Shown: positions 13,902 to 15,839 of the stretch, piece after piece
Layout: every line of letters starts with the position of its first letter
Numbering within the stretch: the first letter of the stretch is position 1
From: a virus
DNA length: 24,824 nucleotides
Virus record (IMG/VR): IMGVR_UViG_3300028417_000019
Coordinates: 1-24,824 of that record
Reading direction: 5' to 3' (one strand)
Position numbers and translations under genes: made by a program
Notes under the pieces: model-generated
Told to the model about the DNA's origin: nothing
Databases searched by the model: none
What the model saw: only the letters and a program-made list of their open reading frames with translations

Positions 13902-14320
13902 AAACGTTTATAAGCTAATAATCGGCTTTTGGGGTATGCCGATATTTTTACCTGATTACTTTGGTTACCGCCCAGTATATAAATATGTGTGGACGTTTGT
14001 CTGATAAAAAAACCTACATGTCCTTTCCAACTTTGCGGACTTTCGCGCCACAATACTACCACATCGCCTTGTTCTGGCGTGTAAACGGTTCTGCCTACGC
14101 TCAACCAACTGCGTGCTGTCAGTTTGCCGCTATACGGCTTGCCGGCTTGCTTGGCTACCCAGTTTACAAAAGCACTACACCAGCTTGTCTCATCGTGCAA
14201 TTTGGAACCGTCAAAACCCAAGTCGTTAAAATACTTTAAGACTTCCGGGTTATCTCTACTTCCGGCAACTTCTTTGATGCCATATTGACTTAAAGCTATA
14301 TGTAAAGTATCTTTTGTCAT
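13898..14320 (-). CDS. Endolysin, NlpC/P60-CHAP-like (TIGR02594 type)
   Basis: The 140-residue protein has a Cys-His hydrolase pattern: TSWCSAFVNW (Cys48), GHVGFFI (His101) and a third polar residue in ILGGNQ (Asn119). The N-terminal ALSQYGIKEVAGSRDNPEVL (residues 9-28) is typical of TIGR02594 family proteins, which are widespread in phages of Bacteroidetes and Proteobacteria. It would cleave a peptide bond in peptidoglycan. No signal peptide is seen, so it needs a holin for export. It is coupled by four-base overlaps to the genes on both sides (14317-14320 and 13898-13901), forming a three-gene lysis cassette inside the head-tail operon. Confidence 0.85.
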   Translation of the reverse strand: MTKDTLHIALSQYGIKEVAGSRDNPEVLKYFNDLGFDGSKLHDETSWCSAFVNWVAKQAGKPYSGKLTARSWLSVGRTVYTPEQGDVVVLWRESPQSWKGHVGFFIRQTSTHIYILGGNQSNQVKISAYPKSRLLAYKRL

Positions 14321-14673
14321 TGCTTCGGCTTGCCGTTTAGTTGTTTGAATTTTTGCAACTCGGCCACCAAATTACGGTTGGTTGTAATCAACTTTTGATT
14401 AGTCTTTACCAAGTCTCGGTTGGTTTCCATAAGCTTTTGATTGGCGGCTAACAACTCTTTGTTATGTTGCATCAATACGTCTATTTCTCTAATGGAATTG
14501 TTGAGCCGTTCGCTCATATCATCTAAAAGGTCTTGATAATATTTTGCCGCCTGCATCTCGTTTTCTGTCCGCATACGTATGATTTCTTGCCGGTTTTTTG
14601 CCCGGGCAAGTAACCACGCTAATAAAGCGGTAACTACGGGAGCTACAATAAGGCTTAATACTTCGCTACTCAT
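14317..14673 (-). CDS. Membrane-anchored coiled-coil protein, holin candidate
   Basis: Starting at the ATG at 14673 gives 118 residues. The GTG at 14706 would add residues encoded by the tail of the preceding structured RNA, so I prefer the ATG. One hydrophobic helix at about residues 4-21 (VLSLIVAPVVTALLAWLLA) is followed by a basic segment and a long coiled coil. Within that lies a seven-residue-like repeat (ANQKLMETNRDLVKTNQKLITTNRNL). A single N-terminal helix before a soluble coiled coil is compatible with a pinholin- or T4-like holin, or with an endolysin export helper. Position before the endolysin with an ATGA overlap supports a lysis role. Confidence 0.6.
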   Translation of the reverse strand: MSSEVLSLIVAPVVTALLAWLLARAKNRQEIIRMRTENEMQAAKYYQDLLDDMSERLNNSIREIDVLMQHNKELLAANQKLMETNRDLVKTNQKLITTNRNLVAELQKFKQLNGKPKQ

Positions 14674-14699
14674 ACGATTAGGTTTTTTATGGTTAAGAT

Positions 14700-14930
14700 G
14701 AAACACTACCGGCGTCTATTTCACTCCCCTGTTTCAGGGTTCTTTTCAATTATACGGTGCATCCCGTCTGTCACGGATGCCCGAAGGCAGCAACGGAGTT
14801 CCACCGTTTTTGACAGCACCGTAAATCCGGTATGTTTCAATTGCTCCCCGTGGTGTCAATTTAAGTTAGTAGTTCCCCCATGCTTTCGCACAACTACTAA
14901 CCCGCAATGGTGGCACGGGCGGGCGCAAAA
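14700..14930 (-). ncRNA. Large structured intergenic RNA after the capsid gene
   Basis: There is no plausible ORF here, but pairing is dense in the leftward RNA. One stem is a perfect 10-bp GTTAGTAGTT/AACTACTAAC (14892-14901 with 14865-14874), enclosing a GAAA tetraloop hairpin (14881-14890). A perfect 8-bp long-range stem, TACGGTGC/GCACCGTA, joins 14816-14823 with 14753-14760. Inside it lie AACGG/CCGTT (14804-14808 with 14792-14796) and a GCATCCGT hairpin (14773-14780 with 14759-14767, one bulge). The loop of that hairpin, TGACAG, is complementary to CTGTCA at 14811-14816, a possible pseudoknot. CCCTG/CAGGG (14735-14739 with 14727-14731) closes the 3' part. The 3' part (14715-14747) resembles 23S rRNA. 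I cannot name an RNA class. Confidence 0.7.
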
Positions 14931-14933
14931 TCT

Positions 14934-15839
14934 TTATAGTATGGCGCCTATTTTTTTGTTTTGGAAAGGCGTCACTATATAATAGTGTCTGTAAGACAAT
15001 TCATTGGCTTGGTTGCGCGGATTGTTTTCGGCTTTTATAAAATACTGGCGAGTAACACCTGTTTTTTTAGCCACAATACCTACGGCAAAAGCTACGGAAG
15101 CAACTTTATCACCATTTTCTTTGATAGCACCAAAAGCTTTTTTCACTTTGTTGCTGTCATAGATAGGCATCACCGGATAGGTATGCAATTCAAAACCTGC
15201 AATTACAGGTTTGGGCTTACCCTGTGTATAGTCCACCAACAAGTTGCCGAAACGCTCACGGTCAAGCAATAAATCGTTCCAATGGTCATCGTTGAGCACC
15301 AAGCGACGTTTATCATCGCCCCATCCGGCTTTATCGCAGGCTTTTTTAAGGGCAACCAAATCGTTATATGTCAAACGCTTGCGTCCGGTTCCGTCATCAT
15401 CGCCGGTAGCTTCCAATACAGGTGTAGCAGCCGTATGTTGCAACGGAGCCAAAGCGTGAATGGCTTTTTTAAACTTATTGACTACAATGCTGCGCACAGC
15501 AGCTTTGGTAGCCGTGTCAATAATGTCATAACTGGCGCCTATGATTTTATCATCAGGCAACGAAACTACTTTTGTTTGATACTTATCCAACGTAATCTCA
15601 ATAGTGCCGTCGGCATATTGTTGATACGGGATAGGATATGTATTGTTGTTGATTAATACATCAACTTCAAATTCTGTTTCGGGCACATATATCTTATTAA
15701 TCTCTGACAAGGTGCCTTTATTGATTTGCGATACATCAACGTTCATCTCGGGAATACCGTTCAAAAACGATGCTTCGTCTGACTTGTCAAGGTTTTGGAT
15801 CACTCTGTCCAACCATACTTCTGGAAAATTTGCAGGCAT
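14934..15839 (-). CDS. Major capsid protein
   Basis: The 301-residue protein directly follows the protease/scaffold gene (five bases), the usual order in tailed phages. It has an N-terminal region with YVPETEFEVDVLINNNTYPI and an acidic DGTIEITLDKYQTK stretch. A helix follows (about 105-130), which may be the HK97-fold spine helix. The C-terminal part (KAENNPRNQANELSYRHYYIVTPFQNKK) looks like the last strands of an HK97-type A-domain or P-domain. Mature N-terminal cleavage is possible given the adjacent protease. Identity rests on position and overall character rather than on a motif. Confidence 0.75.
   Translation of the reverse strand: MPANFPEVWLDRVIQNLDKSDEASFLNGIPEMNVDVSQINKGTLSEINKIYVPETEFEVDVLINNNTYPIPYQQYADGTIEITLDKYQTKVVSLPDDKIIGASYDIIDTATKAAVRSIVVNKFKKAIHALAPLQHTAATPVLEATGDDDGTGRKRLTYNDLVALKKACDKAGWGDDKRRLVLNDDHWNDLLLDRERFGNLLVDYTQGKPKPVIAGFELHTYPVMPIYDSNKVKKAFGAIKENGDKVASVAFAVGIVAKKTGVTRQYFIKAENNPRNQANELSYRHYYIVTPFQNKKIGAIL

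Follow-up and report, generated by a model that had tools for sequence, protein, structure and literature searches.

Between the capsid and holin-like genes of a 24.8-kb virus record (hereafter the window), there is a structured RNA that belongs to a small, previously undescribed phage RNA family. Comparison of its four known members provides good evidence that the family mimics 23S rRNA, its RNAs looking like a reduced version of two domain I segments. The RNA of the window is on the minus strand, as is the late operon, which runs leftward; other leftward genes encode a prohead protease, a CHAP endolysin and a tail-sheath protein. The genes that flank it are as follows.

14934–15839, minus strand: major capsid protein gene (PHROG 267, 5.2e-21; Pfam Phage_capsid_4), upstream of the RNA.
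14317–14673, minus strand: holin-like gene (PHROG 8369 'hol-like', 1.6e-4), its ATG lying 26 nt past P1.

With the capsid stop codon within 14934–14948 and the holin-like ATG at 14673, the two genes are separated by a 260-nt gap containing no recognisable coding content, and the non-coding stretch that a first-pass annotation had described past the capsid stop is thus present. A conserved reading frame in this stretch found no backing, an antisense 97-aa ORF (14689–14982, plus strand) being without a family match and, when used as a query, without a relative. The same annotation had held that the stretch is structured beyond chance, and this is borne out both by covariation among homologues and by the folding energy of the minus strand, with z = −2.8 for 14674–14933 (3 of 200 shuffles equally good) and z = −3.1 for 14702–14842 (0 of 200). 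Because folding is nearly as good on the plus strand (z = −2.9), the strand is assigned from the homologues and not from energy. The parts of the RNA are listed below.

14700–14838, minus strand: family core from P1 through P1′, similar to the core of 23S rRNA domain I in compacted form, drawn from homologues and covariation.
14827–14838, minus strand: P1 5′ strand, pairing with 14700–14712 through 12 bp interrupted by a single bulge; each of the 8 inner pairs is compensatory in the four phages.
14700–14712, minus strand: P1 3′ strand, from pairing and covariation with the P1 5′ strand.
14816–14823, minus strand: P2 5′ strand, H18-like, pairing with 14753–14760; 6 of 6 counted pairs compensatory.
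14753–14760, minus strand: P2 3′ strand, from covariation.
14792–14808, minus strand: H19-like T-loop hairpin with loop UGGAACU; UGGAA is invariant in the four phages and the stem is found by RNAalifold.
14778–14789, minus strand: UUCG-capped hairpin, enlarging the 8-nt linker of 23S and of the other phages.
14764–14776, minus strand: H20-like T-loop hairpin with loop UGACAGA; GUGANAGNC is invariant in the four phages.
14715–14749, minus strand: H24-like module UUGAAAAGAA-hairpin-AGUGAAAUAGA, 91% identical over 33–34 nt to Allocoleopsis and Segatella 23S.
14841–14928, minus strand: upstream accessory hairpin domain, specific to the window, from the fold, with a 10-bp stem at 14865–14901 and a GAAA-capped inner hairpin.

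These bounds differ slightly from those first given: 14700 is the end of P1, and the hairpin domain upstream stops at about 14928. The 10-bp stem with its GAAA-capped inner hairpin was correctly recognised at the outset, as was the 8-bp stem joining 14816–14823 to 14753–14760, which is P2 and has compensatory pairs in the homologues. The pseudoknot suggested for TGACAG and CTGTCA fares differently: the complementarity is there, but it is not conserved in the three homologues, and since TGACAG forms the loop in one of the T-loop hairpins the match is probably chance. No homologue of the accessory domain (14841–14928) was found; it is absent in L145 and L158, whose gaps are taken up by the core, and L144 has other hairpins in its place.

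The three homologues were identified by a combination of covariance models and pattern scans.

L144, 2375–2507, minus strand: homologue on a viral contig.
L145, 5260–5383, plus strand: homologue on a viral contig.
L158, 1987–2121, plus strand: homologue on a viral contig.

The single-sequence model of the window (R1) gave a full-length alignment to L144 (46.7 bits, E = 1.8e-10) and, over 55 kb, matched L158 (E = 2.7e-4) and L145 (E = 6e-3). The pattern GAAAAGNAC-N4..14-GAGTGAAATAGA scanned against 2.9 million viral contigs matched only L144 and L145, both family members, and a pattern drawn from these two and the window brought in L158. A further match in that scan, L159, was rejected because it has no H19 part, runs into the end of a coding region and reaches just 12 bits. 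Two tighter early patterns had no matches in viral contigs, a loose one (GGTGNAANTCC...GCTG) had more than 100 and was uninformative, and among the results of a 28-match search the three known contigs are real and the remainder look like chance. DNA similarity searches in phages returned only weak chance matches and 23S-like contigs. Deposited 'phage' contigs of 2.6–3.1 kb (L203, OR847528.1; H25, H27 and H28) match 23S rRNA and are probably bacterial rRNA contamination.

Searches outside phages led repeatedly to ribosomal RNA genes. In a plasmid collection, a 35-nt match at 14714–14748 recurs in many phyla and is 23S rRNA where checked. Ten of the 14 best matches of the family model (R2) in 395 Bacteroidota genomes are 23S genes and the other four look like chance, such that there is no convincing non-rRNA member in this sample; an exact pattern search of a second, partly overlapping draw of 395 Bacteroidota genomes found none, and a pattern combining T-loop and H24 gave a single chance match in genomes, inside a coding gene (L134). 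The family is so far known from phages only, and is rare there.

No Rfam family matches the window RNA at gathering score, which, together with the existence of covarying homologues, supports the earlier suggestion of a new class of RNA. Of the known classes that had been put forward, HEARO/omega RNA, GOLLD, ROOL and introns gave no covariance-model match even at E ≤ 10, and we find no support for a packaging RNA.

Several features are shared by the four RNAs. First, all have, in the same order, P1 (8–12 bp), P2 (6–8 bp), a UGGAA.. hairpin, a linker (8 nt in the other phages, the UUCG hairpin in the window), a G(UGANAGN)C hairpin, the P2 return strand, UUGAAAAGAA-hairpin-AGUGAAAUAGA and the closing strand of P1; P1/P2, UGGAA, GUGANAGNC, UUGAAAAGAA and AGUGAAAUAGA are found in four of four. 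Second, the loops are conserved while the stem sequences change completely from phage to phage. Third, P1 and P2 covary in the four phages, as the first-pass annotation had predicted of a genuine structure: every one of the 14 pairs counted (8 in P1, 6 in P2) shows compensatory change and all 56 cells are standard pairs. When the 3′ arms are swapped between phages as a control, pairing falls to about a third. Finally, the covariation score of alignment A8 is 0.954 against 0.265 ± 0.082 in shuffles, with none of 500 shuffles reaching it, and every covariation measure exceeds both the 500 shuffles and all slid registers. RNAalifold recovers P2 and the H19-like and H24-like stems unprompted, but misses the H20-like stem, a short one that is weak in both L144 and L145. 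The P1 and P2 registers were chosen by us for each sequence, and P1 was counted on a hand-built alignment because in the full-length set the 5′ stems were misaligned by MAFFT; with four sequences, we regard the covariation controls as strong but not final.

The resemblance to 23S rRNA, which the first-pass annotation did not mention, involves two separate parts of domain I. When anchors taken from the phage RNAs are sought in E. coli 23S, they lie at nt 306–335 and 475–506, segments that we take to be H19/H20 and H24. P2 and the T-loop hairpins correspond to H18-H19-H20 (E. coli nt ~295–345), the H24-like module corresponds to nt 475–506, and the two imitated parts are about 140 nt apart in the 23S sequence. 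H18/H19 have been placed at about nt 280–315 (PMC5071890). The UGACAG of the H20-like loop in the window is identical to that of E. coli H20. Identity of the H24 module to 23S is up to 91% over 33–34 nt in the window and L144, and L145 and L158 have the same anchors.

A model built solely from 12 bacterial 23S H18-H20 junctions (R3, 49 nt), whose junction structure is itself strongly supported, has its two best matches over the four phage loci (55 kb) at the predicted places, L158:2013–2061 (24.6 bits, E = 1.2e-5) and L145:5276–5327 (14.2 bits, E = 0.036). In 0.79 Mb the L158 match has E = 1.7e-4, and since the best non-family score there is 14.1 bits, that of L145 would be marginal without its location. 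The Rfam LSU model likewise aligns L158:2001–2071 to positions 324–390 together with the enclosing stem (E = 0.23), and a position-matrix test of the H19/H20 loops is significant for L145 (0 of 2000) and L158 (10 of 2000). The same test is not significant for the window and L144, whose own H18-H20 regions are too diverged to be recognised by R3; their link to 23S H18-H20 is through alignment to L145 and L158 and through the H24 module.

The four copies are all sense and intergenic, and the constant element across the phages is the RNA and not the neighboring gene. That of the window is between the capsid and holin-like genes, that of L144 between tail and lysis genes, that of L145 in the terminase-portal region ahead of a 66-aa CxxC protein gene, and that of L158 past the DNA polymerase and ahead of a 76-aa basic protein gene; the downstream products (holin-like, 66-aa CxxC, 76-aa basic and a 117-aa protein) are mutually unrelated, and these contexts single out no function. 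The L144 copy is followed by a terminator-like hairpin and preceded by three tandem hairpins of ~33 nt (GCGTGGGAATCTCGCAAAGATACCCAATTACGC and variants; L144:2516–2679, minus strand) spaced by ~22 nt and directly upstream of the RNA. Among annotated phages, a Winogradskyella phage and contigs of human-faecal phages have the capsids closest to that of the window, suggesting a Bacteroidota host. None of the capsid relatives L002–L011 has a copy of the RNA in the capsid-holin gap, which in L002 (87% capsid identity) holds just a short palindromic hairpin, and the RNA has therefore been gained or lost as a unit. In two of these relatives the gap is occupied by different structured RNAs (L003:3918–4092 and L005:3918–4070), each with a long closing stem and then a T-run, and with no rRNA similarity. 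The capsid-holin gap may thus be a site where RNAs are frequently exchanged.

H18-H20 and H24 together presumably form the site of uL24 and uL4, and a ~50-nt 23S fragment around nt 295–345 binds both proteins. The first proteins to join the assembling large subunit are uL24, uL29 and uL22, and H24, at the tunnel exit, is an early-folding helix (PMC11723945); regulation by uL4 uses a leader RNA, with which a 23S fragment competes for uL4 binding (PMC10931766). We lean towards the view that the phage RNA mimics rRNA and binds large-subunit proteins that join early (uL24 and/or uL4, uL22 and uL29), acting as a decoy or a local regulator. The RNA would fold in the cell like the 23S H18-H20/H24 core and, by uniting the H18-H20 fragment and H24 in one clamp, could capture uL24 and/or its neighbors, the most likely partner being uL24, perhaps together with uL4, uL22 or uL29. 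Produced alongside the abundant phage mRNA, it would sequester freshly synthesised ribosomal protein, and the outcome would be either a decoy against new 50S assembly or a sensor tuning the gene directly downstream. More tentatively, it may be specifically a viral decoy of the 23S assembly core that captures a protein such as uL24 and either blocks 50S formation or ties late or lysis gene expression to free ribosomal protein. A decoy acting in trans is slightly favored because the neighboring genes vary between phages.

The nearness of the next start codon speaks for regulation in cis. An intercistronic regulator akin to a ribosomal protein leader, in which binding of free ribosomal protein would alter translation or transcription of the next gene (the holin-like gene in the window) and couple lysis to host ribosome synthesis, nevertheless seems to us rather unlikely. 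It would account for the end of P1 lying 15–26 nt ahead of the next start codon in three of the four phages (the window, L145 and L158), for the sense, intergenic position of all copies and for the terminator-like hairpin in L144; however, tight packing alone would give short spacing, no alternative fold masking the start was identified, and the genes downstream are unrelated. Control of capsid-to-lysis expression, as first suggested for the window, is conceivable, but in other phages the RNA adjoins different genes.

T-loop pairs have arisen repeatedly and convergently as a module on which the tRNA elbow docks (PMC4810234), and the two hairpins could be a generic scaffold of this kind, an interdigitated pair that serves to bind tRNA or to shape a structural RNA and whose 23S likeness reflects shared motifs. 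The closeness of two T-loop-like hairpin loops is indeed common to the phage RNA and to RNase P, T-box Stem I and the L1 stalk, although interdigitation in the phage RNA is putative, and its junction layout and H24 module follow 23S domain I. We consider this improbable: it leaves the H24 module, present in all four phages, unexplained, a model made from 23S only finds L158, and the 8-nt linker and enclosing stem are also common to H18-H20. Shared motifs may likewise underlie the best Rfam match, a sub-threshold one to the AdoCbl-II riboswitch (RF01689) at 14754–14822 (E = 1.2e-4 in a 401-base search), which has a similar stem enclosing three hairpins and partly matching loops. That the RNA is a variant of this riboswitch controlling lysis genes is very improbable, as the score is 28.4 bits against a gathering score of 36.5, the alignment leaves out nine positions of the core, L145 and L158 have no match at E ≤ 10, no cobalamin gene was recognised nearby, and the phage RNA, unlike the riboswitch, has the 23S H24 module. 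A functionless recombined relic of a host 23S gene, which the 35-nt near-identity to H24 might suggest, is scarcely credible, and recent rRNA recombination unlikely, because the same positions are kept in four diverged phages, H21-H23 are missing, and P1 and P2 are unrelated to 23S yet covary.

Viral mimicry of tRNA is known, and bacterial ribosomal protein leaders imitate rRNA. We found no report of a virus-encoded rRNA mimic in the open-access literature, which is weak as evidence of absence; if our reading is correct, this would be the first viral mimic of rRNA known to us and a new route for a phage to act on or sense host ribosome assembly, and would provide a natural stand-in, ~130 nt long, for the core of 23S domain I that is open to testing in vitro.

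The phage RNA agrees with 23S H18-H20/H24 in having an enclosing stem, UGGAA in the H19 loop, a linker of 8 nt, the T-loop G(UGANAGN)C at H20 and the GAAAAGNAC...AGUGAAAUAG module, all in the order and on the strand of 23S. However, it spans ~125–140 nt and not ~210 nt, lacks H21-H23, has P1 and P2 of unrelated sequence, is held closed by a long, covarying stem with no counterpart in 23S, and lies in phages, outside an rRNA operon. With ribosomal protein leaders such as the uL4-binding S10 leader of E. coli it shares the property of an extra-ribosomal RNA that would compete with 23S domain I. It differs from them in that no ribosomal protein gene follows it in any of the four phages, the neighbors varying and all being phage genes, and in that it is like 23S in sequence at two separate sites.
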